The position numbers and the translations under genes are program-made. A stretch of 57,301 bases of DNA. Origin: Oxalobacteraceae bacterium (GTDB lineage: Bacteria; Pseudomonadota; Gammaproteobacteria; Burkholderiales; Burkholderiaceae_D). Each line of letters opens with the position of its first letter. Position 1 is the stretch's first letter. The notes beneath the pieces were generated by a model. That model was not told where the DNA came from. It did no database searches and saw nothing but the letters and a program-made list of their open reading frames with translations. The stretch is taken from contig JAHFQV010000012.1 of the NCBI GenBank assembly GCA_023259175.1, positions 1 to 57,301 of the forward strand. Reading direction: 5' to 3'. Of this stretch, positions 21,389-49,247 are shown one piece after another.

Positions 21389-21606
21389 GGGAAGCGCGGA
21401 TTTATTCGGCGTGCGCGTTCGAGCCCAAAACGGGATGAGTTTGGTAGCAAGATTTCCGCAGGGTGCCAAGCAAGGGAATTTGCTGCCAAAATCGCCCGTT
21501 TTAGGCCGAACCCGGAGGGAAAGCCCATTTTTTCGTTGCACAAGCTCAAAAAATCAGTTTTCAAAAAAATGGGGTTTCGCGCTCGTCGAATAGATCCGCG
21601 CTTTCC
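21389..21606 (-). mobile_element. TA-flanked MITE, copy 1 (218 bp, most diverged)
   Basis: Inverted ends GGGAAGCGCGGATTTATTCG and CGAATAGATCCGCGCTTTCC (18 of 20 complementary) are flanked by TA at 21387-21388 and 21607-21608. It lies between sodB (5' side) and xseA (3' side, stop 28 bases away). It is 8 bases shorter than the other copies, mainly at the apex of the long internal hairpin. Orientation is set opposite to copies 2 and 3. It has no coding capacity of its own. Confidence 0.88.
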
Positions 21607-21633
21607 TAGGGATGCTGCCATCACTGCGACAAG

Positions 21634-23010
21634 CTAATTGGGTAATTTGACGTTGATTTCGCGCCTGTCGTTGGCGGTTTGTATTTGTATTTGTTCGCCA
21701 TCCTGCAGTTGCCCTGCACTGCGCAAAATGGCACCGCTGGCTTGTCGTATGATAGTGTAGCCACGCTCTAAAGTTCTTTGGGGATTGAGCATTTCGAGTT
21801 GCGCTTGAAAATGCGTGAGCTGCGTTTTTTGCCTTAAAACGAGGTCTTTCAGAGCGCGTGAGAGTTGTTGTTTTTGAGTTTGCAACTGCGTTGTTGCGCT
21901 ATTGATTTCAGGACGTGCATTGCGCCAGCGTAATTGCTGTTGCGCTAAACGGGCTTGCTTTTGTTGGGTTTGGTTTTTTCCATGAAACAGCAGACTACGG
22001 GCAAGTTGAGCGAGCCGTAATTGTTTGGTTTCAAAGGCAGTGCGCGGACTCTGTAGGCGATGGCTGAGCCAATCGAGCTGTTGCGAGTCATTTTGCAGTT
22101 TGCGCTGCATTTGACGGCTGAGTGCTTGCTGCATTTGTTGTAGTTGCTCTAGCCAGACCGTGCGTGGCGTTGCAGCCATTTCGGCCGCTGCGGTGGGCGT
22201 CGGGGCGCGTAAGTCGGCGACAAAATCAGCGATCGTAAAATCGCTTTCGTGACCCACGCCGCAAATAATTGGGATGCTGGAATGCGCAATCGTGCGCGCC
22301 AGTGTTTCGTCATTAAATGCCCATAAATCTTCAATGGAGCCACCGCCACGGCACAGCAAAAGAAGTTCACATTGCCCTTGCGCACATGCGCTGGCAATGG
22401 CTTGCGCAATCAAATTGGCGGCTCCCTCACCTTGAACGGGGCAGGGATAGAGCCTAATTTCCACATGTGGCGCACGTCTTTGTAGACAGCTCAGTACGTC
22501 TTGCAGCGCCGCCGCCTGTGGGCTGGTGATGATGCCTATGCGTTTGGGGAAAGTCGGTAATGTTCGCTTGCGTTCTGCGTCGAATAGACCCTCGGCGGCC
22601 AGTTTGGCCTTGAGTTGTAAAAACGCCTCAAACAAATTGCCAACACCGGCACGTCGTAAATTTTCAACCGTAATCTGAAAATCGCCCCGGGGCGCATACA
22701 GACCGACCGTGGCACGCACCTCCACTTTATCGCCTTCCTTGGGTAAGAAATCCACGTGTTGGGCGCGACCTCGAAACATGACTGCCCTTACCTGCGCGGC
22801 ATGATCCTTAAGACTGAAGTACCAATGTCCAGATGTGGCGCGGGTAAAATTGGATATTTCCCCGGAAATCCACGTCAATGGGAAGCTTTGCTCGAGTAAC
22901 TCAGACACCGCTTGGTTTAGCGCGGACACTGGGATGATTTTCCCCGTCCTGATTGGGTTTGCGTTTGAAAATTGAGCTGTCACTTGGCTTTGCCCTCGAA
23001 AAATGTCCAC
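21634..23010 (-). CDS. xseA: Exodeoxyribonuclease VII large subunit XseA
   Basis: The 458-residue protein degrades single-stranded DNA with the small subunit XseB. An N-terminal OB-fold covers about residues 25-125 (LTWISGEISNFTRATSGHWY, FSLKD). The catalytic domain has RIGIITSPQAAALQDVL and LLLCRGGGSIEDLWAFNDE, then VGHESDFTIADFVADLRAPTP (two blocks). A long Gln-rich coiled-coil region spans about 285-400, and the C-terminus has LERGYTIIR. Its 5' end faces the DnaA-box-like region, and xseB is not in the window. Confidence 0.95.
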   Translation of the reverse strand: MDIFRGQSQVTAQFSNANPIRTGKIIPVSALNQAVSELLEQSFPLTWISGEISNFTRATSGHWYFSLKDHAAQVRAVMFRGRAQHVDFLPKEGDKVEVRATVGLYAPRGDFQITVENLRRAGVGNLFEAFLQLKAKLAAEGLFDAERKRTLPTFPKRIGIITSPQAAALQDVLSCLQRRAPHVEIRLYPCPVQGEGAANLIAQAIASACAQGQCELLLLCRGGGSIEDLWAFNDETLARTIAHSSIPIICGVGHESDFTIADFVADLRAPTPTAAAEMAATPRTVWLEQLQQMQQALSRQMQRKLQNDSQQLDWLSHRLQSPRTAFETKQLRLAQLARSLLFHGKNQTQQKQARLAQQQLRWRNARPEINSATTQLQTQKQQLSRALKDLVLRQKTQLTHFQAQLEMLNPQRTLERGYTIIRQASGAILRSAGQLQDGEQIQIQTANDRREINVKLPN

Positions 23011-23200
23011 AGGAGAGAGGATATCGAGCTTGCGCTAGATCAATCTCGGTGCCGCACTTGTCTTGCAATGAAGACTGTGTGCAAGTCATTGATTTTAAAC
23101 GTAAAAATATTGCGATTTTGATGCTTTTCCTGTGCATTGCACAAAATTTCCGTAAGGAATTTTTCGCACGCTTCCTTACGCGTCAGAATTATACACAAAG

Positions 23201-23209
23201 TTATCCACA
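23201..23209 (+). promoter_or_regulatory. DnaA-box match TTATCCACA (1)
   Basis: Exact match to the strong DnaA-box consensus, followed by GAATTGCTGTG. The context resembles site 4 (shared TTATCCACAG then ATTGCT). Confidence 0.6.
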
Positions 23210-23340
23210 GAATTGCTGTGCTCTTACGCGAAAATTTGGCCTATGCTTTCCTTTATTCGATCAAGTATCGCCTTGCTGTTTTTTTGTGCATTCAAGCAAA
23301 GCTTAATGAAATCATGGACTTATGGATTAAACAGCATCAT

Positions 23341-23374
23341 GTTCACAAACTTATCCACAATTTGTGTGCAAAAC
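23341..23374 (+). repeat. 34-bp direct repeat, unit A, containing exact DnaA-box 2
   Basis: GTTCACAAAC, then TTATCCACAA, then TTTGTGTGCAAAAC. It matches unit B (23511-23544) at 31 of 34 positions. CACAAA and TTTGTG on either side of the DnaA-box form a small inverted repeat. Confidence 0.75.
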
Positions 23375-23510
23375 AGTGCACAAGTTTGCTCAAATTTTTG
23401 AAAAACCCAGCGATCCAAGCAAAAATCGGGCATTTTCGGGCACTGATTAAAATTGAAGCAGCCTGATTTAATTCATTTAAAACAGATACTTAAATTTTTC
23501 CGCAAGCTTT

Positions 23511-23544
23511 GTTCACAAAGTTTTCCACAGTTTGTGTGCAAAAC
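23511..23544 (+). repeat. 34-bp direct repeat, unit B, containing one-mismatch DnaA-box
   Basis: GTTCACAAAG, then TTTTCCACAG, then TTTGTGTGCAAAAC. It is 170 bases downstream of unit A and differs from it at three positions, one of them within the 9-mer. Confidence 0.75.
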
Positions 23545-23574
23545 TTTTCGTGCTTGCCAAGTCCGGCTAAGAAT

Positions 23575-23583
23575 TGTGGAAAA
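23575..23583 (-). promoter_or_regulatory. One-mismatch DnaA-box TTTTCCACA on the minus strand
   Basis: TGTGGAAAA on the plus strand. It is the only site of the cluster in the opposite orientation and lies 46 bases from unit B's box. Confidence 0.45.
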
Positions 23584-23676
23584 CTTGAGTCATAGGGTGT
23601 TTGTGAGGATTTGCCTAAATTTTTAGCGCAGGCGTGAATAGTTTACAAATCAATGACTTAGTGGGAGCTCCCAAGC

Positions 23677-23685
23677 TTATCCACA
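23677..23685 (+). promoter_or_regulatory. DnaA-box match TTATCCACA (4)
   Basis: Exact consensus. It is followed 16 bases later by ACTGTGCAAAAC, the same motif that follows the boxes of units A and B. Confidence 0.6.
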
Positions 23686-23887
23686 GTATTGCTCACAGAA
23701 ACTGTGCAAAACCCGATTGGGAGGACTTGCCCTTCGCGAAACAAAAGGCTACATTGCGGGCTGAGGGAAATTTATTGCATCATCTAACTTTGCCTACTTT
23801 TCGGGGTGTTTGTTCTTTTCACCGAGCGCTGTGCATCATTTCGGTAGGCATTTAGTGAAGTTACACTTCGCTTTCACTTTGGTTTCA

Positions 23888-23906
23888 TTATTACGAATCA
23901 TAATAA
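23888..23906. promoter_or_regulatory. 19-bp palindrome (9-1-9) overlapping the exbB ribosome-binding site; Fur-box-like
   Basis: TTATTACGA-A-TCATAATAA matches its reverse complement at 8 of 9 arm positions. Size and symmetry are those of a Fur operator, and half of it (AATCAT) agrees with the Fur consensus, but the other half fits poorly. The palindrome runs into AAGGAG at 23905-23910. Confidence 0.35.
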
Positions 23907-23916
23907 GGAGTAAGAT

Positions 23917-24522
23917 TTGTTCCCGTTTATTCAAGCCGCTGGTTGGCCCATCTATTTCCTCTTATTTGCGTCCGTCGTTGCGCTGGCCTTGATCGTGGAG
24001 CGCTTGTTGTCTTTGCGTAGTCATCGAATTTTGCCGACGACCTTGTTGGAAGAGGTGATACGTGTCTATCAAAACGGCAAAATCAAACAGGAAGTGATCG
24101 ATCAACTCGCCGTCAATTCGCCTTTGGGACGGGTGCTCGCTGCAGGCTTACGCAATGTGAATGCGCCGCGCGAAGTGATGAAGGAGTCGATTGAAGAAGC
24201 AGGACGCGCAGTGGCGCACGAAATGGAACGCTTCCTGACTAGCTTGGGGACCATCGCCTCGCTGGCACCTTTAATGGGATTACTCGGAACCGTGGTGGGG
24301 ATGATAGAAATTTTTGGTTCGCAAAATGCGACGGGCGCGAATCCCGCACAATTGGCGCATGGGATTTCGGTTGCTTTGTACAACACTTTGTTTGGACTCT
24401 TAATCGCGATTGTAGCGCTGGGATTTTATCGTCATTTTCGTGCACTGGTGGACGGTTTTGTGGTTGACATGGAGCAGCAGGCAGTGAAGTTTGTTGACAT
24501 CGTTCACAGCGCGAGAAAATAA
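23917..24522 (+). CDS. MotA/TolQ/ExbB proton channel family protein (second ExbB)
   Basis: The 201-residue, three-helix proton channel protein starts at TTG, supported by AAGGAG six bases upstream. The helices are near WPIYFLLFASVVALALIVE, SLGTIASLAPLMGLLGTVVG and VALYNTLFGLLIAIVALGF. It lacks the exported extension seen in the first ExbB. It is followed one base later by an ExbD and then lpxK, the usual Burkholderiales order. It may energise a TonB or Tol-like system; the partner is not in this cluster. Confidence 0.93.
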   Translation: MFPFIQAAGWPIYFLLFASVVALALIVERLLSLRSHRILPTTLLEEVIRVYQNGKIKQEVIDQLAVNSPLGRVLAAGLRNVNAPREVMKESIEEAGRAVAHEMERFLTSLGTIASLAPLMGLLGTVVGMIEIFGSQNATGANPAQLAHGISVALYNTLFGLLIAIVALGFYRHFRALVDGFVVDMEQQAVKFVDIVHSARK

Positions 24523-24523
24523 G

Positions 24524-24985
24524 ATGGACTTTCGCAAGGGAAAACGAAGGGAAGAGCCAGAGATTAATCTGATTCCATTTATTGACGTGCTCTTGGTCAT
24601 TTTGATTTTCTTGATGGTGACCACAACGTATAGCCGTTTTACAGAGCTACAAATCACGCTGCCGACCGCAGATGCAGAAAAAGCGCAAGATAAACCCGCG
24701 CAAATTGAAATTGGAATTGACGCGCAGGGACGCTATAAAATTAATAGCGATGCGGTGAGTTTTATTGATGCCGCGACTTTGGCCTCCGATTTGCGCAAAG
24801 CAGCCGATGCTTTGAATGCCGATAAATCAGTTCAAGGACGTGATCCTGTCATCATCATCAATGCTGATCGTGCAGCAACACATCAGTCGGTGATCGATGT
24901 GTTAGAAGCGGCGCGCATCGCTGGTTTGGCGAAAGTAAGTTTCGCCGCCCAAGCCACTGCTAATGCCAATGCCAATGGCAAATAA
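24524..24985 (+). CDS. ExbD/TolR family biopolymer transporter (third ExbD of the window)
   Basis: The 153-residue protein has a membrane helix containing NLIPFIDVLLVILIFLMV, with the conserved Asp, and a periplasmic domain with DPVIIINADRAATHQSVIDV typical of the family. ATG 24524 lies one base after the exbB stop. A longer upstream frame would overlap exbB and is not needed. It is cotranscribed with exbB and probably lpxK (41 bases to its ATG). Confidence 0.92.
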   Translation: MDFRKGKRREEPEINLIPFIDVLLVILIFLMVTTTYSRFTELQITLPTADAEKAQDKPAQIEIGIDAQGRYKINSDAVSFIDAATLASDLRKAADALNADKSVQGRDPVIIINADRAATHQSVIDVLEAARIAGLAKVSFAAQATANANANGK

Positions 24986-25026
24986 AGCGTTTTTTGTAGT
25001 AGTGCTGTAGCAGATTGCCCATAACC

Positions 25027-26085
25027 ATGAAAAATACCGACCGTGCTCGCCTGGAAAAATTTTTGATCCAAGCGTGGGCGCGGCGCGGCTTTTTTATGTT
25101 TCTGTTTTGGCCGGTTGCTGTTTTTTTTGGCGCACTCTTGTGGCTCAGACGCGTGCTTTTTCGTATTGGTTTTTATCGAAGTACACAGTTGCCACTTCCG
25201 CTGATTGTCGTGGGCAATATTTATATCGGTGGTACGGGTAAAACGCCGATGGTGATTTATCTACTGCAACAGTTGAAACAGGCTGGTTGGAATCCCGGTG
25301 TCATTTCTCGGGCCTACGGTGTAAAACTTGAGCAGCCGCGCGAAGTGCTGCCTGATTCCTTAGCCTCGGAAGTGGGCGATGAGCCTTTGTTGATACAACA
25401 GCGCAGCCAATGTCCTATGATGGTTGGGGCAGATCGTGTCGCTTGTGCGCACCAGCTGATTGAAAAACATCCGCAGCTTGACATCCTCATTTCTGACGAT
25501 GGTTTGCAACATCTCGCGTTCAAGAGAGAAGTGGAAATCGTCATGTTCGATCAACGCGGCGTGGGGAATGGTCAGCTTTTGCCCGCCGGCCCATTGCGCG
25601 AAAAGCTTAGCGCAGACTATCCCTTTGCGGTGCTCAATTCGGTACCCGAGGACGTTCGTGCAAACCTGCCACGCGTGCTGCGTGAGCAGGCTTGGCCCAT
25701 GCGATTGCAAGCAACGCAGTGTTGGCAATTGCAAAGTCCTGCGCAGCACCAAGCGCTCGCAGAGTTTAAAGGAAAGCGTATTTTGGCGGCAGCAGGCATT
25801 GGTCACCCCCAGCGCTTTTTTTCTATGCTCGCATCGCATGATTTTGAGATGAAAACTTTAGCGCTACCCGATCATTATGCGTTTGAGGCCAGTACATTTG
25901 CCCACCTAGACGCGGAAATTATTCTGATCACCGAAAAGGATGCAGTAAAATGTCGGCAAATTGCGCAGCTTCAGTGTGATGCGCGGATTTGGGTGGTGCC
26001 GGTCGAAGCCCAATTGCCACCAGAATTTATGGCAAAACTGCTTGCAGCTTTGCCGAGGAAGAAAAATGGATACACGATTACTTGA
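25027..26085 (+). CDS. lpxK: Tetraacyldisaccharide 4'-kinase LpxK
   Basis: The 352-residue protein phosphorylates the 4' position of the lipid A disaccharide precursor at the inner membrane. An N-terminal membrane helix (about 21-40) is followed by the P-loop [12 protein letters not shown] (about 63-74). The block [20 protein letters not shown] is LpxK-typical, as are the C-terminal LPDHYAF and [12 protein letters not shown] 25027 is chosen over TTG 25015. It overlaps the Trm112-like gene by 20 bases. Confidence 0.95.
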
Positions 26086-26236
26086 TGTCCTAGTTTGCCC
26101 TGTTTGTAAGGGGCCTTTAGTTTATGAGAAGGCGGCGCAGGAACTCATTTGTAAAGCCGATAAATTGGCATTTCCGATACGCGATGGCATTCCTATTATG
26201 TGGGAAGATCAGGCGCGTCGTTTGACCAATGCATAG
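26066..26236 (+). CDS. Trm112 family (YcaR-like) small zinc-ribbon-type protein
   Basis: The 56-residue product begins [18 protein letters not shown] with the CxxC pair Cys11/Cys14. A lone Cys29 replaces the second pair, as in many bacterial YcaR proteins. The pattern [11 protein letters not shown] is the family hallmark. It lies between lpxK and kdsB as in E. coli and most beta- and gammaproteobacteria. Its TAG stop (26234-26236) is made of the TA target plus the first G of MITE copy 2, so insertion may have changed the original C-terminus. Confidence 0.93.
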
Positions 26237-26461
26237 GGAAGCGCGGATTTATTCGATAAGCGCGAAACACCATTTTTTTAAGAACCTGAATTTTCGACCT
26301 TGTTCAACGAAAAAATGGAGTTTCCCTCCGGGTTCGGCTCAAAATGGGCGATTTTGGCAGCAAATTCCCTTGCTTGGCACCAGCCAAGCTGCGGAAATGT
26401 TGCTACCAAACTCATCCCATTTTGGGCTCGAACGCGCATACCGAATAAATCCGCGCTTCCC
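26236..26461 (+). mobile_element. TA-flanked MITE, copy 2 (226 bp), inside the lpxK-kdsB operon
   Basis: Perfect 20-base inverted ends (26236-26255 and 26442-26461) are flanked by TA at 26234-26235 and 26462-26463. Hairpin 1 has arms 26264-26278 and 26310-26324 (14 of 15 paired). Hairpin 2 runs 26333-26433 with arms of about 47-50 bases and apex GCTTGGC-ACCA-GCCAAGC. It ends 39 bases before the kdsB start and lies between same-strand genes, so it should be present in the operon mRNA. Confidence 0.92.
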
Positions 26462-26500
26462 TAGCTTTCACCCTACTGATTTCTTGATTGCTAGCCACCC

Positions 26501-27247
26501 ATGAGCTTTACTGTGATTATTCCGGCGCGTCTCGCTTCGACGCGTTTGCCCAATAAGGCTTTGCTCGATTTAGGCGGCAAACCGATGGTGGTACGCACTG
26601 CTGAACGTGCGATGGCTTCTGGTGCTGGGCGGGTCTTGGTCGCCACAGATCATCAAGCGATTGTGCAAGCTTGCGCTGCGCATGGGATAGAGGCGCATAT
26701 GACGCGCGCCGATCATCCTTCGGGAACCGATAGAATTGCGGAAGTGGCCAGCGCTTTGCAATTGGCTGATGACGCGGTGGTGGTCAATGTGCAAGGTGAC
26801 GAGCCTTTGATTGATCCTGCCCTGATTAGCGCGACCGCTGCGATGGTCAGCCGAGCAACGCCAATGGCAACCGCGGCGCACCCCTTGAGCGATATTGTCG
26901 ATTTTTTTAATCCTAACGTGGTTAAAGTTGTGCTCGATCAGGCGCAGCAAGCCTTATTGTTTTCACGTGCACCGATTCCTTGGCAGCGCGATCATTTTGC
27001 GCAGGATCGTTCTAGTTTTCCCGATGGATTTACGGCGTTACGGCATATTGGAATTTATGCCTATCGCAGTGATTTTCTGGCGAACTATCCACAACTTCCA
27101 GTTTCCCCCTTGGAACAATGGGAATCCCTAGAACAATTACGCGTGTTGTGGAATCGGATTGGGATTGCGGTGCATATTGCCGCACATAGCCCCGCTGTTG
27201 GGGTCGATACGCTCGAAGATTTGCAGCGGGTTCGTCAATTTTTTTGA
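26501..27247 (+). CDS. kdsB: 3-deoxy-manno-octulosonate cytidylyltransferase KdsB
   Basis: The 248-residue cytoplasmic enzyme activates Kdo as CMP-Kdo for lipopolysaccharide inner core assembly. N-terminal [21 protein letters not shown] is the nucleotide-binding signature (two blocks: [21 protein letters not shown]). [10 protein letters not shown] and FSRAPIPW, then HIGIYAYR and [13 protein letters not shown], are conserved family motifs. It follows lpxK and the Trm112 gene but is separated from them by a MITE. No clear ribosome-binding site is seen before ATG 26501. Confidence 0.96.
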
Positions 27248-28261
<1,014 letters not shown>

Positions 28262-28265
28262 TGAG

Positions 28266-28293
28266 AAAGCGGACTTTGTGTCCGCTTTTTTTT
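28266..28293 (+). terminator. Rho-independent terminator of adk
   Basis: Stem AAAGCGGAC / GTCCGCTTT with loop TTTGT and an eight-base T-run, starting 5 bases after the adk stop. Confidence 0.85.
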
Positions 28294-28421
28294 ATTCACA
28301 ATTTGAAAAACTTAGAGAAGGAGTTCGCGGCAAATTATAAGAAAAATCAAAACAACACTGTGCATCAGATACCGGTTCGAAAATATAGAAAATAAATTTG
28401 TTTGTTTTTGGAGGAGTCAAT

Positions 28422-30602
28422 ATGGTAGTTAATCTGTGGGTGGTTGTGGCATGTGGCGTAATAGCAGTGCTGTACGGTTTGCTGACGAGAAATTGGATAC
28501 TAAAACAAGACGCGGGAAATGCCCGCATGCAGGAGATTGCTACCGCGATACAAGAAGGTGCGGCCGCTTATTTGGCACGCCAATATAAGACCATAGGCAT
28601 GGTGGGTGCGGTGCTCTTTGTGTTGATCGCGTTTTTGCCAGGTCTGGGATTAACAACTGCGCTCGGCTTTTTGCTCGGCGCGGTCTTGTCGGGCGCTTGC
28701 GGTTTCATTGGCATGAACGTTTCCGTGCGCGCCAATGTGCGGACCGCGCAAGCGGCGACCAAGGGTATGAATCAAGCTTTGGATGTTGCGTTTAAAGGTG
28801 GCGCTATTACTGGCATGCTGGTGGCCGGTTTAGGACTTTTGGGCGTGGCGCTGTTCTACATGTATTTGTCGCGTGACCCCAGTGTCACTGTCAATCATGA
28901 TCTCATCAAGCCGCTCATAGGCTTGGCTTTCGGGGCCTCTTTGATTTCCATTTTTGCGCGTTTGGGCGGCGGCATCTTTACCAAGGGTGCCGATGTTGGC
29001 GCGGATTTGGTCGGTAAAGTCGAAGCAGGTATTCCCGAAGATGACCCTCGTAATCCAGCCGTGATTGCCGATAACGTAGGCGATAATGTCGGTGATTGCG
29101 CGGGGATGGCAGCCGATTTATTTGAAACCTATGTGGTGACCCTAATTGCGACCATGTTACTGGGTGCGTTGACGATGACGGGTACCGATGCGATTGTGTA
29201 TCCTTTGTTGTTGGGGGCCGTTTCTATCCCAGCTTCCATCATCGGCTGCTCGGTTGTTAAGCATACGCCTGGCAGTAAAATTATGTCGGCCTTATACAAA
29301 GGTTTGACTTGGGCGGCGGGTTTGTCGCTGATCGGGTTCGCGGTGGTGACTTGGATGTTGTTTAAAGAAGACGCACTCCGCCAACAAATGATGATTTCAT
29401 CCGTGGTCGGCATCGTGTTAACCGGCTTGATGGTTTATATCACCGAATACTACACAGGGACAGATTTCAAACCAGTGCGTCATATTGCCGAGGCATCGAC
29501 GACTGGCCACGGCACTAACATCATTGCAGGTTTGGGCGTTTCGATGAAATCAACGGCCTATCCCGTATTGGCGGTCTGCGTTGCGATTTTAGTGTCCTAC
29601 AAATTTGGCGGCGGCTTGTACGGCATCGCGGTTGCGGCCACTTCCATGCTTTCGATGGCCGGTATTATCGTTGCGCTCGATGCCTATGGCCCGATTACCG
29701 ATAATGCAGGGGGTATCGCCGAAATGGCGGGCATGCCTGATTCGGTACGCGCCATTACCGACCCGCTAGATGCCGTTGGAAACACGACTAAAGCGGTCAC
29801 TAAGGGCTATGCGATTGGCTCTGCAGGTTTGGCGGCCTTGGTTTTGTTTGCGGATTACACCCATGCTTTAAGCTCGGTCGGTATGTCGATTAAGTTTGAT
29901 TTATCCGATCCGCAAGTGAATGTGGGTCTGATTATTGGTGGCTTGATTCCCTATTTATTCGGTGCGATGGCAATGGAAGCGGTGGGGCGTGCGGCGGGTG
30001 CGGTCGTGGTGGAAGTGCGTCGTCAATTCCGCGACATCAAAGGCATCATGGATGGAAGCGGCAAGCCTGAATACGATAAAGCGGTTGATATGTTGACGGC
30101 TTCGGCGATTAAAGAAATGATACTGCCTTCATTATTGCCAGTCGCTGTGCCCATCTTAGTCGGACTTACTTTGGGCGCTGCGGCATTGGGCGGCATGTTA
30201 ATGGGAACGATTGTGACGGGTTTGTTCGTTGCCATTTCGATGACTACCGGCGGTGGAGCTTGGGATAACGCAAAAAAATACATTGAAGATGGTCATTTTG
30301 GCGGCAAAGGTTCCGACGCGCATAAAGCGGCAGTGACGGGTGATACCGTGGGCGATCCCTACAAAGACACCGCCGGCCCTGCGATCAATCCTTTGATCAA
30401 AATTATCAATATTGTGGCCTTGTTGTTGGTACCCTTGTTGCCTTTGGTTCCTTGGCATCAAGTTCAAGCGCCACCAGCGCCGGTTGTGATGACCGCGCCT
30501 GCGGCTGAGTTGCCCGTAGTGGCGGCACCGACGGCTTTGGAGGTGGTTAAAGTTGAAGCAGCTAGCGTACCTGCGGCGGCCTCCGCATCAGCATCAAAAT
30601 AG
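28422..30602 (+). CDS. hppA: Membrane-bound proton-translocating pyrophosphatase, K+-independent type
   Basis: The 726-residue, roughly 16-helix inner-membrane pump hydrolyses pyrophosphate and exports protons. The substrate site is seen in [20 protein letters not shown] and [20 protein letters not shown]; the second metal-binding region has [16 protein letters not shown] and [15 protein letters not shown]. The determinant region reads [12 protein letters not shown] with Lys457 and Thr460, the pair typical of K+-independent enzymes (Ala and Gly in K+-dependent ones). ATG 28422 follows GGAGG. The final 45 or so residues are an Ala/Pro/Val-rich extension not seen in standard family members. Confidence 0.95.
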
Positions 30603-30621
30603 CGTAATTTTTTTCGCTAGG

Positions 30622-30645: not shown

Positions 30646-30676
30646 GTTTTGTATTGTTGGAAGTTTCGGTACAATA

Positions 30677-33099: not shown

Positions 33100-33137
33100 T
33101 TTAACTCCTGTAATGTTTACCTTGGTTGAGATAGTTA

Positions 33138-33363
33138 AGGAAGAGCGGGTTTATTCGATAAGCGCGAAACACCATTTTTTTAAGAACCTGAATTTTTGAC
33201 CTTGTTCAACGAAAAAATGGAGTTTCCCTCCGGGTTCGGCTCAAAATGGGCGATTTTGGCAGCGAATTCCCTTGCTTGGCACCAGCCAAGCTGCGGAAAT
33301 GTTGCTACCAAACTCATCCCATTTTGGGCTCGAACGCGCATACCGAATAAATCCGCGCTTCCT
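33138..33363 (+). mobile_element. TA-flanked MITE, copy 3 (226 bp)
   Basis: Left end AGGAAGAGCGGGTTTATTCG (two changes from the others) and right end CGAATAAATCCGCGCTTCCT, flanked by TA at 33136-33137 and 33364-33365. Same orientation as copy 2 and nearly identical to it inside. It lies between the small exported protein gene and the barstar gene, both of which start away from it. Confidence 0.9.
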
Positions 33364-33676
33364 TAATCCACGGGCTCTCGATTTTTGCACAATATTAAAT
33401 ATATTTAAGCTTGTGCTAAATACTCTTGAAAAACCGTGCAGCTAATGTACATCATTTTTGAAATAAAAAAATGGGTAGTGTCTTGCGAAAGTGTAAAACA
33501 CGTAAGCGAATGTGATTTGCGCGCGAGTAATTAGGCTTTTGCGCAACATCTTTAGGCACTGAACGCAAATTTTCCAAATAGAATGTAAGCTTGATCCAAA
33601 ATCTAGGTTCAACTTAGGAGACCTCGACGTAAGCTTCGCCTACAATGCAAAGTATCCCAAACCGATGGAGGGCCGC
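33364..33676. other. Gene-free AT-rich leader region before the barstar gene
   Basis: About 310 bases with an AT-rich patch (AATATTAAATATATTTA near 33392) and no gene. It presumably carries the barstar promoter. I see no clear operator. Confidence 0.45.
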
Positions 33677-34084
33677 ATGCTGGACAATCACAAGGTGCAG
33701 GCAATCGCGTTTAAGCGCGGTGACCGACGACTGTTGCGGACGCTGCAGAGTGAGGCACTGCTGCGTGGGCAGCATTTCTTGTACGCTGACTGTGGCAAAG
33801 CCCATACCAAGTGGCAGATACTGGATAAAGTTGCGCGCAGCTTTGGCTTTCCCGAACAATTTGGTGATAATTTCGATGTGCTTCTAGATTGCCTTACTAT
33901 TCGCCTAGCGGCTGCAGGGGAACAGCAAGGATTCTTTGTGGTTTTAGATCGGCTCCATGCCGCCACCCATCTCGAACATGAATTGCAAGAAGTGTTATTG
34001 ACGGTTTTCCTTGACGCAGGCGATTTTTGGATGGACTTGGGTGTGCCATTTCGGATTTACTATTCTACGATTGATACCTTGTAA
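33677..34084 (+). CDS. Barstar family protein (barnase-inhibitor-like), no nuclease partner nearby
   Basis: The 135-residue acidic protein carries the barstar core: ILDKVARSFGFPEQFGDNFDVLLDCL (two blocks: ILDKVARSFGFPEQ, FGDNFDVLLDCL) followed by GFFVVLDRL. The segment FGDNFDVLLDCL corresponds to the barnase-binding helix region of barstar (YGxNWDALWDCL). ATG 33677 is preferred over 33665 because GGAGGG sits five bases before it. Barstars neutralise extracellular-type RNases or polymorphic toxins. No ribonuclease gene adjoins it; purN follows 105 bases later. It may be an orphan immunity protein or a housekeeping homologue. Confidence 0.85.
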   Translation: MLDNHKVQAIAFKRGDRRLLRTLQSEALLRGQHFLYADCGKAHTKWQILDKVARSFGFPEQFGDNFDVLLDCLTIRLAAAGEQQGFFVVLDRLHAATHLEHELQEVLLTVFLDAGDFWMDLGVPFRIYYSTIDTL

Positions 34085-40154: not shown

Positions 40155-40242
40155 TGGCAATTCCTAAAATGGGAGGTGGGGAAATTTTCAAGCGGCGCTG
40201 CTTTACTTTACAATAGGGGGTTTGCAGCGCTCTATTTTTATT

Positions 40243-40698
40243 ATGTCTGAAAAATCTATGCTTGTCGTCAATAAAAACGCTTATCTCACTTTACATTACC
40301 GTTTAGCCACACTTGCGGGCGAAGACATCATTTCTACTTTTCATGAAAGCCCAGCGACCTTGTTATTGGGGCAGGGGCAGTTAGCTCCCGGTTTGGAAGC
40401 GGCTTTGTTGGGCTTGGAGGAGGGATCGCATACGACGCAAGAACTGGCACCGGAAGCCGCTTTTGGTGTGCGTAATCCTGAATTAATGCAGCGGGTTTCC
40501 TTGAAAACTCTGCGTGAGAATTCGGTCTTGGGTGAAGAATTTAAAGTCGGTGATTTGATCGATTTTAACGCGCCTTCGGGTGGGCAATTTGCGGGCGTGA
40601 TCCAAGATTTAGATGAGGAATCGGCGCTGTTCGATTTTAATCATCCGCTGGCAGGACAGCGTGTTTTGTTCGAAGTTAAAATCATTGGAATTTTATAG
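40243..40698 (+). CDS. fkpB: FKBP-type peptidyl-prolyl isomerase (SlyD/FkpB group)
   Basis: The 151-residue enzyme has the reduced FKBP fold with an IF insertion. [40 protein letters not shown] and [16 protein letters not shown] are the hallmark segments. The E. coli homologue fkpB also precedes ispH. ATG 40243 is preferred over TTG 40222. Its TAG stop shares one base with the ispH GTG start. Confidence 0.9.
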
Positions 40699-41642: not shown

Positions 41643-41646
41643 TTTT

Positions 41647-42864
41647 TTAAGTCGCAGTACCCGTCAGAAATTGTCTCAAACCTGCGTCGCTACAGTAGCC
41701 TATTTGCAGTTCTGGTGTGGCATGCCAATCGGAAAAACGCTTTAAAACGCGTTTCAGATCAAGACCTAAAGCTTCGCTGAAGTTGACCTCTGCTTCTAGG
41801 TGCAGGGCTTTGATTTCCATGACACCTATTTTTCGATGGGCTTTGGCATCGATGCGACCGATGAGTTTTCCACGTCTCAGTATGGGCAGTGTGAAGTAGC
41901 CATATTGGCGCTTGGATTGCGGCGTGTAGCATTCGATTTTATAGTCGAAATGAAAGAAATCTAGGGCGCGTTTTCTATCCCAAACAATCGGGTCAAAGGG
42001 GGAGAGTAAAGTAGTAAGGCTCGCTTTTAATTGCCCAGCTTGCGCTTGGTTCAGTAAATCCTTATGCGCGGGATGGACGTAGAAATCTTCTTGCCATCCT
42101 TCGACGCGCACCACTTGCAGTAGTCCACGATCAGCGAGGGCTTGCGCGCTTAATTTGTGGGCTAATTTTTTCATGCGAAAATAATCTGCGATCCACTGTG
42201 CTTGTGTGATGCCCAGTGCACGCACTGCATCGAGTACTTGATTTTCTTCATCGTGCGCGCGTTTGCCCAAGTCACGTTGGTCTTGCCATGTCGGATGGAC
42301 GCGTTCGGTTAAATCATACACACGTTGAAATCCTTGACGACGATCAACCATGACTTGGCCAGTGGTAAAGAGTACTTCGAGCGAGCGCTTTTCTGGTTTC
42401 CAATCCCACCAACCATTGTTTTTTTCTGTATTGCCTACAAAATCGGCAGAGCGGCATGCACCATTTTTCTTGATGTGCGTGAGGACTTGTTGGATGTGCT
42501 TGGCATTTTCAAGTTGCCAGCTTTGATTGAGCTTCCAGCCCATATTGTCGGGCTGTAGCATTTGATGGCGATAGCGACCGAAATGTTCGATAGGGATGAA
42601 ACAGGCTTCGTGCGACCAGTATTCGAATAGATTTTTTTCCGCGAGATGTTGATCCAGCCAGTTTAAAGGATAGTCGCCAAGTCGACTCCAAAGCACCAAG
42701 TAAGGGCTGCGTGCGACCACACTAATGGTGTCGATTTGCAGCACGCCCATGCGTCGTATACAGGCTAAAACTTCAGCCTTACTTGCTTTGCTTTTCGCAG
42801 GATGAAGTAAGCCTTGCGCAGCCAATTGCAGGTTTCTAGCGGCGGTCAGGCTAAGCGAAATCAT
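41647..42864 (-). CDS. Winged-helix DNA glycosylase, YcaQ/AlkX type
   Basis: The 405-residue HTH_42 family protein starts SLTAARNLQLAAQGLL. Gln43-Ile44-Asp45 in MGVLQIDTISVV gives the QxD catalytic motif that marks the YcaQ/AlkX branch (AlkZ has QxQ). Further matches are YWSHEACFIPIE and PFDPIVWDRKR. These enzymes unhook interstrand crosslinks and excise bulky N7-alkyl purines (family knowledge). It is eight bases downstream of trpS, in the same operon. Confidence 0.88.
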   Translation of the reverse strand: MISLSLTAARNLQLAAQGLLHPAKSKASKAEVLACIRRMGVLQIDTISVVARSPYLVLWSRLGDYPLNWLDQHLAEKNLFEYWSHEACFIPIEHFGRYRHQMLQPDNMGWKLNQSWQLENAKHIQQVLTHIKKNGACRSADFVGNTEKNNGWWDWKPEKRSLEVLFTTGQVMVDRRQGFQRVYDLTERVHPTWQDQRDLGKRAHDEENQVLDAVRALGITQAQWIADYFRMKKLAHKLSAQALADRGLLQVVRVEGWQEDFYVHPAHKDLLNQAQAGQLKASLTTLLSPFDPIVWDRKRALDFFHFDYKIECYTPQSKRQYGYFTLPILRRGKLIGRIDAKAHRKIGVMEIKALHLEAEVNFSEALGLDLKRVLKRFSDWHATPELQIGYCSDAGLRQFLTGTAT

Positions 42865-42872
42865 GAGGTTTT

Positions 42873-43919
42873 TTAAAAATGCTTTAAGCCGATAGCGGCT
42901 TTGACTTCGTCATTGGTACGTGCCGCAATTTCGCGGGCGCGGAGGGTGCCTTGCTTCAAGAGTTGTAAGACATGGCCTTTATCTTTTTCGTATTCCTGAC
43001 GCCGTTCGCGGATCGGGCGCAGCATGTCTTGCAAGATGCCTTCGAGTCGCGCTTTGACTTTCGAGTCGCCCAAGCCGCCGCCTACATAGTGTTCCTTCAT
43101 CGCTTGTAGTCCTTCTTTGTCCGGGTCGAAAGCATCGAGATAGGTGAAGGCGACGTTGCCCTCTAAGTGACCAGGGTCTTCCACACGCAAGTGTAAAGGG
43201 TCGGTATAGACATTGCGCACAGCGAGTTTGATTTCGGCTTCGCTTGCACCTAGGTTGATGGCGTTCCCCAATGATTTGCTCATTTTGGCTTTGCCGTCTA
43301 TGCCCGGCAATCGACCGATTTCAGGTACCAAGGCCTCGCATTCCACCAAGATGTCTTTTTTCGCTAGACGATTGAAGCGACGCACGATTTCGTTCGTCTG
43401 TTCTATCATGGGAATTTGGTCATCGCCGACCGGCACTAAACTGGCTTTGAAGGCGGTGATGTCGGCCGCTTGACTGACGGGATAAGTGAAAAATCCAGCG
43501 GGAATATCCCGTTCGAAATTACGTAAAATAATTTCTTGTTTGATGGTGGGATTGCGTTCTAAACGTGCGATGGTGACTAAATTCATGTAGTAAAACGTGA
43601 GTTCAGTTAACTCGGGAATTTGCGATTGGATAAAGATGGTGGACTTGGAGGGGTCAATCCCAACCGCCAAATAATCCAGCGCCACTTCGATGACATTGTT
43701 ATGAACTTTGCTCGGATCGTCCATATTGTCGGTCAATGCTTGGGCATCGGCGATCATAATGTATTGCTGATACTGGTTTTGGTACATCACGCGATTGCGC
43801 AGACTGCCCACGAAATGGCCTAAATGGAGTGGGCCAGTGGGTCGATCACCTGTGAGGATGAGATGTTGCTTATTGCTGGGCGATTTTACTTCGGATGGGG
43901 TTTGCTGCGCGTGGTTCAT
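42873..43919 (-). CDS. trpS: Tryptophan--tRNA ligase TrpS
   Basis: The 348-residue class I synthetase has the HIGH-type motif [11 protein letters not shown] near residue 30 and [10 protein letters not shown] near residue 214. TGDRPTG at the start and the region [10 protein letters not shown] match TrpRS. It attaches tryptophan to tRNA-Trp in the cytoplasm. It is divergent from hemC with a 196-base shared upstream region. Confidence 0.96.
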
Positions 43920-44115
43920 GCGGTGTCCAAATTCGGTGAGTGTCGATTCTAAAAGAGCGAAAATTGCGATGCTATTCCTCGGCGCATAATGCCTTTAGCC
44001 TCGCTTTATTGTCAAGAATTGTCTGAGAAAGATGAGCCTCGGCATGGTAAAATCCGAGTTTAGGCATTTTGCTTTACCATAAATTTTTAAATAACTTTTT
44101 TAGAAGGTTTGTGCT

Positions 44116-45081
44116 TTGAACGCTGACTTAAATTCGACCACGGCCATGCCTAAGCAACTCATTATCGCGTCTCGCGAAAGCCGTTTGGCGATGTGGCAGG
44201 CTGAACATGTGCGGGCGCGCTTGCAGGCTTTGTATCCGCAGTGCGATGTGCGTATTTTAGGGATGACGACGCGCGGTGATCAGATACTCGATAGAGCCTT
44301 ATCGCAGGTGGGTGGCAAGGGTTTGTTTGTCAAAGAGCTGGAAGTGGCGATGGAAGACGGTCGTGCCGATTTAGCGGTGCATTCCTTAAAAGATGTGCCT
44401 ATGGATTTGCCGGACGGTTTTATGCTCGCTGCGGTTTTAGAGCGCGAAGACCCACGCGACGCCTTTGTCTCGAACGCCTATACCTCTTTGGCGGCGCTAC
44501 CGGCAGGGGCGATTGTCGGCACCAGCAGTTTGCGTCGGCAAGCCTTGATTTCCGCAGGTTTTCCGCATTTGATTATTAAGCCCTTGCGTGGCAATCTCGA
44601 TACGCGTTTGCGTAAGCTCGATGCGGGTGAATATGCCGCCATTATTTTGGCTGCAGCGGGTTTGAAACGCTTAGGAGTGCCAGAACGCATTACTGCTTTT
44701 TTAGCGCCTGAACTGAGTTTGCCTGCCGCCGGACAAGGTGCAATGGCGATTGAAATTTTGAGTGGTCGATCCGATTTAATTGCAGCACTTGCGCCGCTGA
44801 ATCATCACGAAACTTCCTTGCGCGTGCATGCCGAAAGAGCGGTCTCAAAGGCTTTTGGCGGGAGTTGTCAAATTCCGCTGGCCGCTTTCGCCGAGATTGA
44901 GGCAGGTCAGATGACTTTGCGCGCGATGGTGGCGACTCCGGATGGCGGACAGTCTGCCCACGCCGCTGTCAGTGGCGACGCTGAACATGCCTTGCGTTTG
45001 AGCGAGCAAGTTGTGCAGCGGCTGCAGCAGCAAAATGCCGACGCGATTTTGGCGCAATGTCGTGTTGCAGGCGATTCTTAA
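44116..45081 (+). CDS. hemC: Porphobilinogen deaminase (hydroxymethylbilane synthase) HemC
   Basis: The 321-residue enzyme condenses four porphobilinogens into hydroxymethylbilane. Key parts are [43 protein letters not shown] and [13 protein letters not shown]; the Cys of GSCQIP holds the dipyrromethane cofactor. The TTG start is chosen because AGAAGG lies 8 bases upstream; ATG 44146 is the alternative. It begins hemC-hemD-hemX-hemY, and its TAA abuts the hemD ATG. Confidence 0.96.
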
Positions 45082-45894
45082 ATGAGCCCGTTTTCCGCCG
45101 AACTGGACTCAGATGTTAGGATCGTTCTCACGCGTCCAGAAAAGCAGGCGCGGCAAATGCTGCCGGCTTTGGCGCAGTTAGGCTTGGCGGCGGAGATTTT
45201 TTCCTTATTTGAAATCGAGACACTCGATGATTTTACTTTGCTCGATGCTGCGCTAGCGCGGCTTGCTGATTTTGCGCTGCTGGTCTTCGTGAGCCCGAAT
45301 GCGATTGAAGCTTTTTTCGCGCGCCTCACACAACAAAATATGGCTCATCCAAAGAGGATGCAATGGGGCGTGATGGGTGCGAGCAGCCTGCAAGCTTTGC
45401 AGATTCATATAGGCACAGATGGATTGGAACGAGTCGTGCAGCCCGCCGATGCGCAAAAAACGGATTCGGAAAGTTTTTTTGCGAACTTAGATTTAGACCA
45501 TTTGCGCGGCAAAAAAGTGTTGATCGTGCGTGGTAGTTCTGGACGCGAATTTCTCTCACAAGCATTGCGGCAGCAAGGGATAGAAGTGGAATTAGTGAGC
45601 GCGTATCGGCGTGTTTTTCCGATCTTAAATCAAGCACGTCAAGATCAGCTCGAACAACTTTTGCAAAAACAAAGAACATGGATAATTACCAGTTCAGAGG
45701 CCCTAAAACAGCTTATAGCTTGGTGCGCAGCGAGTGCGATACCCGATGCAGTCGTTAAAATGCAACACCAAGTCCTGTTCGTACCACATCAACGTATTGC
45801 AGAACAGGCGCAAGGTTTAGGATGCCATCATGTGCACTTAACTGCCTCTGGCGACGAAAATATTTTACTCGCGTTACAATCTCGACAAATTTAA
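45082..45894 (+). CDS. hemD: Uroporphyrinogen-III synthase HemD
   Basis: The 270-residue protein cyclises hydroxymethylbilane with D-ring inversion to uroporphyrinogen III. Sequence is poorly conserved in this family. VLTRPEKQARQMLPAL, FVSPNAIEAFF and VLIVRGSSGREFLSQALRQQG are recognisable, and its position between hemC and hemX supports the call. Two similar lobes are expected. Confidence 0.92.
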   Translation: MSPFSAELDSDVRIVLTRPEKQARQMLPALAQLGLAAEIFSLFEIETLDDFTLLDAALARLADFALLVFVSPNAIEAFFARLTQQNMAHPKRMQWGVMGASSLQALQIHIGTDGLERVVQPADAQKTDSESFFANLDLDHLRGKKVLIVRGSSGREFLSQALRQQGIEVELVSAYRRVFPILNQARQDQLEQLLQKQRTWIITSSEALKQLIAWCAASAIPDAVVKMQHQVLFVPHQRIAEQAQGLGCHHVHLTASGDENILLALQSRQI

Positions 45895-45901
45895 TTTCCA
45901 T

Positions 45902-47107
45902 ATGAATGAAATAAACCCTTCAACACAAGTTGAAACTATTGAGCCTATTGAGTCCATTATGTCGACTACGCCAACACCGGAGAATCAAGCCTCTTCTTCC
46001 AGCTCGCTAGCTGCCCCGAATACTGACATCAGCGCGCCGACCGCAGAAGCTGGGTCGCCCGTGTGGAAGTCCACACCGTATTTGATTTCGGGCGCGCTGG
46101 CTTTGCTGTTGGCGGTGCAATGGCTCAATACGCATAATCAGATTGATGGTTTGACTAAGGAACTGGCTAAACGTTTACAAAGCGTTGAAATCAATAATAG
46201 CGAAGTCAAAACGACCAACCGCGCTATCGTTGAAACCACACGCGAAGTGCAAGCCAAGGTCACGCTGCTCGAAGGCAAGCAAGCCGAGGCGCAAGGTCAA
46301 CAACTCGCGCTCGAACAACTCTATCAAGATTTATCGAAAAATCGCGATGAATGGGCGCTAGCCGAAATCGAGCAAGTGTTAGCGACGGCGAGCCAGCAAT
46401 TACAGTTGGCTGGCAATGTTCAAGGTGCTTTAATCGCTTTGCAAAACGCGGATAGTCGCTTGGCGAAATCGGAAAAAGCGCAGTTTATTCTGGTGCGACG
46501 GGCGATTGCAAAAGACATCGAACGCTTAAAAGCCTTACCTATACTCGATTTGACGGGCGTGGTTTTGCGCTTAGATACCGCGATTCAATCGGTCGATACA
46601 GCGCCCTTATGGTCGGATGAAAAAGCACCGACCGAGGCAATAGCGCCCAAGGCTCCTTTGCGTGTCCTCCCCAACTTGAACAAATCTAAGAGCGGGCAGG
46701 CGCAAGGCAAAGAAGCCGAATATACCTTGAGCGAAAAGCTGCAAGATCGCTGGCAGAGTTTTTCAGCTGAGATGTGGACCGAGCTCAAACAGCTAGTGCG
46801 TGTGCGCAGTGTCAAAACACCTGATGCCTTATTCGTTTCGCCGACGCAAGCTTATTTTGTCAAAGAAAATCTCAAACTCCGCTTATTGAATGCACGTTTG
46901 GCGCTCTTATCGCGCAATGAAAACGTTTTTCAGAACGACATAAAGTCAGCGCAAGACATTATCGAGAAATATTTTGACGAGCGCTCAAAACAAACGGTGG
47001 CTTTGCAGTCCATGCTGACACAAATCCAAAACAATAAGCTCTCGATTGAAATGCCCGCGTTGACGGAGAGTCTTAATTCGATACGTAATTTCAAAGTGAA
47101 GCCTTAA
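45902..47107 (+). CDS. hemX: HemX: membrane-anchored protein of the haem-biosynthesis cluster
   Basis: The 401-residue protein has a Ser/Thr/Pro-rich cytoplasmic N-terminus (to about 55), one membrane helix (about 60-80, YLISGALALLLAVQWL), and a long helical periplasmic part with coiled-coil character (about 85-150). This is the HemX architecture. It was once called uroporphyrinogen-III C-methyltransferase, but no catalytic domain for that is visible. ATG 45959 is an alternative start. It lies 7 bases after hemD. Confidence 0.88.
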   Translation: MNEINPSTQVETIEPIESIMSTTPTPENQASSSSSLAAPNTDISAPTAEAGSPVWKSTPYLISGALALLLAVQWLNTHNQIDGLTKELAKRLQSVEINNSEVKTTNRAIVETTREVQAKVTLLEGKQAEAQGQQLALEQLYQDLSKNRDEWALAEIEQVLATASQQLQLAGNVQGALIALQNADSRLAKSEKAQFILVRRAIAKDIERLKALPILDLTGVVLRLDTAIQSVDTAPLWSDEKAPTEAIAPKAPLRVLPNLNKSKSGQAQGKEAEYTLSEKLQDRWQSFSAEMWTELKQLVRVRSVKTPDALFVSPTQAYFVKENLKLRLLNARLALLSRNENVFQNDIKSAQDIIEKYFDERSKQTVALQSMLTQIQNNKLSIEMPALTESLNSIRNFKVKP

Positions 47108-47114
47108 ATTTATC

Positions 47115-48335
47115 ATGCGCATTTTTATTCGATTTTTAATCCTCTTCGCTTTGGCGGCAGGTTTGGCGGTGGGCGGGCGCTTTAATCCGGGTAATGTGGT
47201 TTTTTTCTACCCACCGAATCGCTTTGATATCTCCCTAAATCTATTTCTCTTTGCTTTTCTCGTTCTGTTTTTTGTCCTTTATTTTTTACTGAGAACGCTG
47301 ATGATCGCTTTGGATATGCCGCAGAAAGTTGCGGCGTATCGCCAGAGCAAACGCGAACGTGATAGTAATAAAGCCTTGCGTGAAGGCTTAAAAGCCTTGT
47401 TTGAAGGACGATTTGGGCATGCAGAAAAATCCGCACTGAAAGCGCAAGACCTGAATGAAAATAAAGGCTTGGCGACCTTAATCGGTGCTCGTGCTGCGCA
47501 TCACATGAGTCAGTTTGAAAGGCGTGACGCTTGGTTGTCCAAGATAGAAGATGATGCGGGATTTAAGACGGCAAGATTAGTCACCATGACCGAGCTTTTT
47601 GTTGATGAACATAAAGCTGAGCGCGCACTTGAAGCGGTGGCCGAACTCAATGCCCGCGGCAAGCGACATATTCAAGTTTTGCGTTGGGCTTTAAAAGCCA
47701 ATCAACAAGCGAAAAATTGGAACGAAGTGCTCAAATTGGTGCGCACGCTGGAAAAGAATCACGCCATTCATCCCGCCTTAGCAGGTCGTTTGCGTGAGAT
47801 GGCGTATGAAGCTTTGCTGAGAGAAAACGAGCACGATCCTGAGTCACTGCGTTATGTTTGGAACGAAGTTCCTTCTAACGAACGCAAGAACCGCTATATC
47901 GCTTTTACCGCGGCGACCGCATTTACCGAATGCCAGTTGTTTGATGAGGCGCGTTTCATCGTGGAAAATGCCTTGTCGGATGAATGGGATATTCGCTTAG
48001 TGCGGATTTATCGGGAAGCCGCAGGTAGCGAAGGTTCGGCAGCGTTGCGGATGCAAATTGAACGTTGTGAATCGTGGATGCAAACCCATGTCCGAGAGCC
48101 GGAATTGGAGCTTTGTCTAGGGGTATTATGCTTCAAGCAAAAGCTATGGGGAAAAGCCCAAGTGCATATGGAAAATACCTTGGCGTATTGCAAAGAGGCT
48201 CGTACCGAACGTGAAGCGAATTTGTATCTCGCCCAATTGCACGAAGCGATAGGACAAGCGTCAGAGGCAGCCAAGTATTATCGACAATGCGCGATGGTGG
48301 GGCAGCGCTCAATATTTCTTTCCTCGCCTTCTTAA
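47115..48335 (+). CDS. hemY: HemY: TPR protein of the haem-biosynthesis cluster
   Basis: The 406-residue product has two N-terminal membrane helices (LILFALAAGLAVGGRF, LFLFAFLVLFFVLYFLL). TPR-type helical repeats follow (AEKSALKAQDLNENKG, ALKANQQAKNWNEVLKL, EANLYLAQLHEAIGQASEAA), as in HemY proteins. Molecular role is unresolved; the gene is conserved next to hemX. It follows hemX by 7 bases. Confidence 0.88.
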   Translation: MRIFIRFLILFALAAGLAVGGRFNPGNVVFFYPPNRFDISLNLFLFAFLVLFFVLYFLLRTLMIALDMPQKVAAYRQSKRERDSNKALREGLKALFEGRFGHAEKSALKAQDLNENKGLATLIGARAAHHMSQFERRDAWLSKIEDDAGFKTARLVTMTELFVDEHKAERALEAVAELNARGKRHIQVLRWALKANQQAKNWNEVLKLVRTLEKNHAIHPALAGRLREMAYEALLRENEHDPESLRYVWNEVPSNERKNRYIAFTAATAFTECQLFDEARFIVENALSDEWDIRLVRIYREAAGSEGSAALRMQIERCESWMQTHVREPELELCLGVLCFKQKLWGKAQVHMENTLAYCKEARTEREANLYLAQLHEAIGQASEAAKYYRQCAMVGQRSIFLSSPS

Positions 48336-48407
48336 TTTCGAATGAAGAATTCCGCTGCAAAATCGAGGTGTGCCTGCTGCAGCGCACCAATGCGCTCTAA
48401 AAATCGT

Positions 48408-48413
48408 TATAAT
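48408..48413 (+). promoter_or_regulatory. Possible -10 element TATAAT before ppa
   Basis: A perfect TATAAT lies 48 bases before the ppa ATG. The -35 region at the right spacing is a poor match, so this is tentative. Confidence 0.35.
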
Positions 48414-48460
48414 GGCGCGATTCTTCACCGAAATTCTTCGATTTAATTGGAAAGTGCCTC

Positions 48461-48997
48461 ATGAGTTTAAATAAAGTCCCCGCCGGTCGCGATTTGCCTA
48501 ACGATTTCAATGTCATCATTGAAATTCCAATGAATGCAGACCCGATCAAGTATGAAGTCGATAAAGAAAGTGGCGCGATTTTCGTCGATCGTTTCATGGG
48601 CACGGCGATGCACTATCCGTGTAATTATGGCTATGTGCCTGATACGATTTCAGGCGATGGCGATCCGGTCGATGTCTTGGTGATTACGCCGTTTCCATTG
48701 ATCCCGGGTGTGGTAGTGCGTTGCCGCCCTATCGGAATTTTGAAAATGCATGATGAAGCGGGTGCGGACGGCAAAGTTTTGGCTGTGCCTATCGATAAAA
48801 TTCTGCCGATTTATCAACACTGGCAAAAACCGGAAGACATGAATGAATTGCGCCTCAAGCAGATTCAGCACTTTTTCGAACATTACAAAGATTTAGAGCA
48901 AGGTAAATGGGTCAAGATCGATGGATGGGGCGGACCTGATGAAGCGCGTGAAGAAATTTTAACGGGCGTAGCAAATTACCAGAAGATCACTGCGTAA
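48461..48997 (+). CDS. ppa: Inorganic pyrophosphatase Ppa
   Basis: The 178-residue soluble family I enzyme hydrolyses pyrophosphate to two phosphates. Active-site features include [43 protein letters not shown] (two blocks: [24 protein letters not shown]) and the C-terminal [10 protein letters not shown]. It lies 125 bases after hemY. MITE copy 4 separates it from the terminator that follows. Confidence 0.97.
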
Positions 48998-49021
48998 GAA
49001 TTTCGTAAAAAATACCCATTA

Positions 49022-49247
49022 AGGAAGCGCGGATTTATTCGGTATGTGCGTTCGAGCCCAAAATGGGATGAGTTTGGTAGCAACATTTCCGCAGCTTGGC
49101 TGGTGCCAAGCAAGGGAATTTGCTGCCAAAATCGCCCATTTTGAGCCGAACCCGGAGGGAAACTCCATTTTTTCGTTGAACAAGCTTGAAAATTCAGGTT
49201 CTTAAAAAAATGGTGTTTCGCGCTTATCGAATAAATCCGCGCTTCCT
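49022..49247 (-). mobile_element. TA-flanked MITE, copy 4 (226 bp), between ppa and its terminator
   Basis: Ends AGGAAGCGCGGATTTATTCG and CGAATAAATCCGCGCTTCCT are perfect 20-base inverted repeats, flanked by TA at 49020-49021 and 49248-49249. Orientation is opposite to copies 2 and 3. It starts 24 bases after the ppa stop; the terminator stem begins directly at the right TA. Confidence 0.92.

Follow-up and report, generated by a model that had tools for sequence, protein, structure and literature searches.

A multi-copy family of gene-less inverted-repeat elements with 4-bp YTAR target duplications in an Oxalobacteraceae genome, very probably MITEs of the IS5 group

Results and Discussion

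Four copies of a short element in the window

The window, i.e. the whole stretch of DNA analyzed (57,301 nucleotides of contig JAHFQV010000012.1), carries four copies of a short element, each one with genes on both sides. The copies and their flanking 4-mers are listed below; the + label is arbitrary and indicates the orientation common to copies 1 and 4, copies 2 and 3 being opposite.

21386..21389, no strand: target duplication CTAG left of copy 1
21390..21605, + strand: MITE copy 1, 216 bp, SodB-type gene on one side and XseA-type gene on the other
21606..21609, no strand: target duplication CTAG right of copy 1
26233..26236, no strand: left flank of copy 2, ATAG, imperfect duplication (ATAG/CTAG)
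26237..26460, - strand: MITE copy 2, 224 bp, flanked by LpxK-type and KdsB-type genes
26461..26464, no strand: right flank of copy 2, CTAG
33135..33138, no strand: target duplication TTAA left of copy 3
33139..33362, - strand: MITE copy 3, 224 bp, flanked by patatin-like and barstar-like genes
33363..33366, no strand: target duplication TTAA right of copy 3
49019..49022, no strand: target duplication TTAA left of copy 4
49023..49246, + strand: MITE copy 4, 224 bp, flanked by an inorganic pyrophosphatase gene and a convergent protein-kinase gene
49247..49250, no strand: right-hand TTAA of the copy-4 target duplication; it overlaps the base of a hairpin resembling a terminator (49249-49266, with a T run)

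The four copies are 216-224 bp long and have 19-bp inverted ends, GGAAGCGCGGATTTATTCG. Allowing at most three mismatches, this 19-mer matches the window eight times, versus a mean of 0.02 in 100 shuffles. An earlier note on this DNA had reported four copies with TA on each side, two in each orientation, and all of them were found where it placed them, flanked and oriented as described. The inverted ends that it described were also recovered, but their length is 19 bp and not 20, since the outermost base (R) belongs to the target duplication. Its description of a multi-copy, gene-less element of the MITE type with terminal inverted repeats stands, as does the absence of a transposase inside an element of this size, the interior of which has no evident gene.

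Two other features of the window were observed. Copy 3 has a barstar-family gene (33665-34084) about 300 bp away. Two 35-base direct repeats, 91% alike (23340-23374 and 23510-23544), are located upstream of the XseA-type gene and contain TTATCCACA and TTTTCCACA; we take these two sequences to resemble the DnaA-box consensus.

The duplicated target is YTAR

The flanks were compared among the copies having both ends (at most five mismatches each) and 10 flanking bases per side. The sample consisted of 45 copies (28 of the own genome plus 17 of relatives) and left out those with fewer than 10 flanking bases on C46 and C232 (contig edges). The two flanking 4-mers were identical in 32/45 copies, while identity over only 2, 3 or 5 bases occurred in 0/45. 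All the identical 4-mers are YTAR, except one (CTAT). Positions 0 and 3 of the 4-mer each match in 38 of the 45 copies, above all 1000 shuffles, and the positions neighbouring the 4-mer behave as in shuffles. The 4-mers were unequal in 13/45 copies: three have a poor end or an unrelated flank (L092, L134 and L021), nine are one or two bases off and one is three bases off (L121). In the window, the duplication is perfect at three of the four copies (CTAG, TTAA and TTAA), copy 2 having ATAG/CTAG.

The duplicated target is a 4-bp YTAR, which has been described as the duplicated motif of IS5 (PMC10359306). CTAG and TTAA are palindromic, and thus resemble a TA plus one further base of the element end. 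Five identical pairs are non-palindromic, namely CTAA/CTAA (three), TTAG/TTAG (one) and CTAT/CTAT (one); these are direct repeats only, and a TA duplication with an extra end base cannot give them.

In locus L019 (1725-1745), a second end-like sequence (GGAAGCGCAGATTTA) comes immediately after the CTAG on the right of one copy, as though a single target had served for two insertions.

Copy number and distribution

The own genome (4,025,955 bases in 233 contigs) contains 100 matches to the end at no more than three mismatches (48 forward and 52 reverse) versus 0 for the reversed-pattern control, in agreement with the high genome-wide number expected in the earlier note. Among these ends, 27 pairs face each other at a distance of 162-240 bp (with the TA counted); the other 46 have no partner. 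A BLAST search with a whole copy listed 88 alignments: the first 40 span 92-236 bases and the remaining ones are mostly inverted ends matching one another. Since several copies lie at contig ends, the true copy number is likely higher. The best pair of own copies is 99.6% identical and the median identity is 90.2%; the existence of near-identical copies suggests that some transposition was recent, and many copies appear to be decayed or truncated.

Of 19 stretches carrying the exact end, 17 belong to Undibacterium sp. records and two to Polaromonas sp. records. The ends are present in 9 of the 43 genomes of the genus, own included. At the level of the taxonomic family, the end occurs with at most one mismatch in 11/392 genomes. 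Five of these, counting the own one, belong to the genus, and in all the six that lie outside the genus the end differs at base 9 (G/T). At the level of the order, the exact G/T-variant end was found in 5/399 genomes, own included. Viral contigs gave 0 exact matches to the end. No match was obtained when the copy-2 element was searched in plasmid and phage collections (E up to 0.01), nor when the window was compared with Rfam (gathering thresholds). A literature search on miniature inverted-repeat elements found no such family described for Undibacterium and, of the four end sequences searched as literature text, a single 13-mer was retrieved, once, in a yeast paper.

Genomic context and sites in relatives

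An open reading frame of at least 90 aa was found on each side of 24 of the 28 own copies, and their arrangement, tallied approximately, is convergent in 8, divergent in 7 and tandem in 9. When the flanks of the 28 own copies were joined, an open frame crossed the join in one case only (L010); here a PlsY-like protein presumably starts after the element, and counting its gene moves L010 from convergent to tandem. Furthermore, five of the 28 own copies overlap a mechanical open frame of at least 90 aa (91, 92, 114, 125 and 314 aa). The scan of copies 2 and 4 found no sigma-70-like promoter, and one terminator-like site for each, located outside the element. Copy 4 is inserted at a TTAA overlapping the base of the terminator-like hairpin 3' of the pyrophosphatase gene.

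The earlier note had suggested looking for empty sites in sister strains. At the copy-4 site, none of the 29 relative loci has an end match with fewer than five mismatches, and 27 of the 29 alignments cross the join, some of them weakly; the four relatives with an alignment score above 180 have a terminator-like hairpin after the pyrophosphatase gene and lack the element. The SodB-XseA spacing around copy 1 was measurable in 37 of 41 relatives and was shorter by 54-316 bp in 34 of these, with a median over the 37 of 239 bp shorter, versus 220 bp for the element plus its duplication. The spacing is longer by 255-883 bp in the other three (G014, G035 and G042), in which something else must lie there. 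No exact empty site was seen, as the relatives are only ~66-83% identical at these two loci.

IS5-type insertion sequences with a near-identical end

Of the seven loci obtained from the six genomes outside the genus, L168 and L166 are insertion sequences. The remaining five are short elements (99 bp in four cases, 122 bp in one) with YTAR on each side, the two 4-mers being equal in 4/5. L168 is 1215 bp long, is flanked by CTAG/CTAG, has GGAAGCGCTGATTTATTCG at one end and contains an intact 339-aa frame that matches NF033581 (IS5-family transposase; E 5.8e-101), with DDE_Tnp_1 and DUF772. L166 (1219 bp, CTAG/CTAG) has the same GGAAGCGCTGATTTATTCG end, and its transposase-like frames are broken, as judged by eye. 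The MITE end is identical to this end of L168 and L166 at 18 of 19 bases, base 9 being different (G/T); the second ends of L166 and L168 have four and five mismatches from GGAAGCGCTGATTTATTCG, respectively, the match being good at one end only. A third insertion sequence, L145, comes from the same genus and has CTAA/CTAA flanks, a NF033581 match (E 4.1e-95) and ends GGAAGCGCTGAATAAT and GGAAACGCTGATTTAT. All three share the YTAR duplication with the MITE, but they are about 1.2 kb long with a transposase gene (broken in L166), and the MITE interior has no convincing likeness to such sequences: its comparison with five insertion sequences gave only chance-length matches beyond the ends.

DUF772 was found in 21/42 genomes of the genus. 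Inverted ends with a YTAR duplication were present in five of the 30 DUF772 loci fetched from the genus, one of them being L145 and the other four the following:

L140, L158, L165: the same insertion sequence, present three times in genome G018, flanked by TTAA or TTAG
L142: DUF772 locus with inverted ends, flanked by TTAG

Several other DUF772 loci among the 30 showed end pairs with non-YTAR 4-mers, and were set aside as other groups or chance. The own genome has one DUF772 match, on another contig (C229), which is closest to IS1182 and lacks ends of this kind in its vicinity. Neither the DDE_3 nor the DUF772 profile, run on the 233 contigs of the own genome, retrieved an IS5-group transposase accompanied by matching ends; the missing partner is weak counter-evidence, since an assembly in 233 contigs collapses repeats.

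Origin of the family

The 18/19 end on same-family insertion sequences, the YTAR duplication and the IS5-family transposase of L168 indicate that the four repeats very probably belong to a family of non-autonomous transposons (MITEs) of the IS5 group. This gene-less family is probably moved by the borrowed enzyme of an IS5-type transposon: the transposase, supplied in trans, would bind the MITE ends and would insert the element at YTAR, through a staggered cut of 4 bp.

The earlier note had read the repeats as a Correia-like MITE derived from IS630/Tc1-mariner, with a TA target duplication, and a TA does flank both sides of all four copies. Such an origin is now extremely improbable. Indeed, the 4-bp identities, including CTAA/CTAA, TTAG/TTAG and CTAT/CTAT, contradict it unless all five non-palindromic pairs arose by chance, and one end is common at 18/19 bases with IS5-type insertion sequences. 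Furthermore, the search for an IS630-family transposase, which the note had proposed, gave 0 DDE_3 matches in the own genome (an incomplete assembly in 233 contigs). The IS630 derivative was rejected on the absence of DDE_3 and on the flanking 4-mers, and the Correia-like assignment fell together with the TA signature, the duplication being of 4 bp. The target of Correia elements is TA, whereas here it is YTAR, and it is by the target site that the two families were compared. The likeness is that the Correia element of Neisseria is also a multi-copy MITE of ~200 bp (PMC10969869). The family assignment is corrected here, and the case illustrates that a palindromic YTAR duplication can pass for a TA with a longer inverted end.

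By anatomy, our IS5-group family looks like MITEPsy1 of Pseudomonas syringae pv. phaseolicola, so that this kind of element appears to be already known. MITEPsy1 is 100 nt long and present in six copies, with 18-nt ends (GGAAGGTCTGAAAAAGCC / GTATCCTCTGAAAAAGCC), CTAG or YTAA targets, a 4-nt duplication and demonstrated transposition; its authors proposed the IS5-family insertion sequence ISPsy2 as its parent (PMC3189936). Both elements are small and gene-less, with a left end starting with GGAAG, a 4-nt duplication and a proposed IS5-family parent. What separates them is the sequence of the ends, the size, the number of copies and the interior: the present elements are of 216-224 nt, with GGAAGCGCGGATTTATTCG ends and in many more copies. 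In the main text of the MITEPsy1 paper, the words "secondary structure" are absent (PMC3189936).

Fold of the whole element

Folding of the whole element gave -115.1 kcal/mol (z -11.96) for one strand and -128.1 kcal/mol (z -13.71) for the other. The predicted shape has three arms, namely a stem made by the ends plus two others, and in this model the fold-back of the whole element is unusually complete. Folding as such is not new, since MITE transcripts are described in a review to form stable stem-loops (PMC10969869).

Alignment A3 comprises 29 copies from four genomes, namely 24 of the 28 own copies (four shorter ones omitted) and five from three relatives. In this alignment 93.5% of the cells pair, and 20 of 84 pairs have changes on both sides, versus a shuffle mean of 8.0 (reached by 0/500 shuffles) and 2-11 for slid-partner controls; these counts should be read considering that the structure was derived from one aligned copy and that relatedness inflates both-side changes. 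The number of further pair types is less striking (50 versus 44.6, reached by 6/500 shuffles). RNAalifold alone gave both-side changes in 16 of 68 pairs. One-sided changes keep a standard pair in 18/58 singletons (31%) and in 9/35 shared variants (26%), where 34% is expected assuming a transition share of 2/3. Two-sided variants pair in 14/24 singletons and in 9/12 shared variants.

The fold could be a selected RNA function at the host level (an mRNA stabiliser, an RNase III site or a terminator), the copies having been domesticated. The strongly negative z values of both strands speak for it, as do the excess of both-side changes over shuffles and slid controls and the two-sided variants, which often still pair. 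We nevertheless consider this explanation quite unlikely. Being close to the 34% expectation, one-sided changes are not visibly filtered, and that they break pairs at about the chance rate argues against a host role of each copy. Coherently, the flanking genes have no preferred arrangement, copies 2 and 4 lack a sigma-70-like promoter and have their terminator-like sites outside the element, and the ends occur in only nine of the 43 genomes of the genus.

Template-switch (quasipalindrome) correction can produce compensatory changes during replication, and it may account for those seen here without selection. This has a real chance of being right, if somewhat below an even one: the both-side changes are clustered, for example in a hairpin arm of L051, and the loss of pairs by one-sided changes is close to that expected by chance, although the data do not separate template switching from selection in the transposing lineage. 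It would explain the fold and not the family, and is therefore compatible with the IS5-group MITE explanation. We favour the view that the transposing lineage maintains the fold, through a propagation advantage of some kind or through template-switch correction of imperfect palindromes, and that it does not serve host regulation by each copy.

Elements with similar ends and other interiors

Seven elements having these or similar ends and other interiors were used for comparison: three from G021 (two of 159 bp, one of 68 bp), one of 159 bp from G005, one of 99 bp, one of 122 bp and a contig-cut Polaromonas piece. Their interior-only z ranged from -1.9 to -10.5, and six of the seven were below -2.72, the minimum of sixty random 186-base windows (mean -0.40), the exception being the 99-bp element. 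In six members of the present family, the interior-only z ranged from -3.0 to -8.1. It is conceivable, although we hold it rather doubtful, that IS5-type ends repeatedly acquire unrelated self-complementary interiors, that complete fold-back is itself selected for mobility and that structure, not sequence, defines these MITEs across Burkholderiales. Elements that share their ends but differ in their folded interiors offer material for directly testing the role of fold-back in transposition.

A second family with the same ends was observed in Undibacterium sp. 339R, with elements of 159 bp (L031, L032, L034 and L041) and of 68 bp (L036 and L039). Its interior carries GTCATCCCCG...CGGGGATGAC-like hairpins, in our view reminiscent of dRS3-like repeats, and its duplications include CTAA and CTAT. 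L037, L040, L048 and L049 have the same length as the second-family elements, and at L042 (1735-2130) an element of the 159-bp type is apparently interrupted by ~230 bases of other sequence. Lastly, the Polaromonas genome G392 contains paired 161-bp elements with these ends (L227 and L228), flanked by unequal, non-YTAR sequences.
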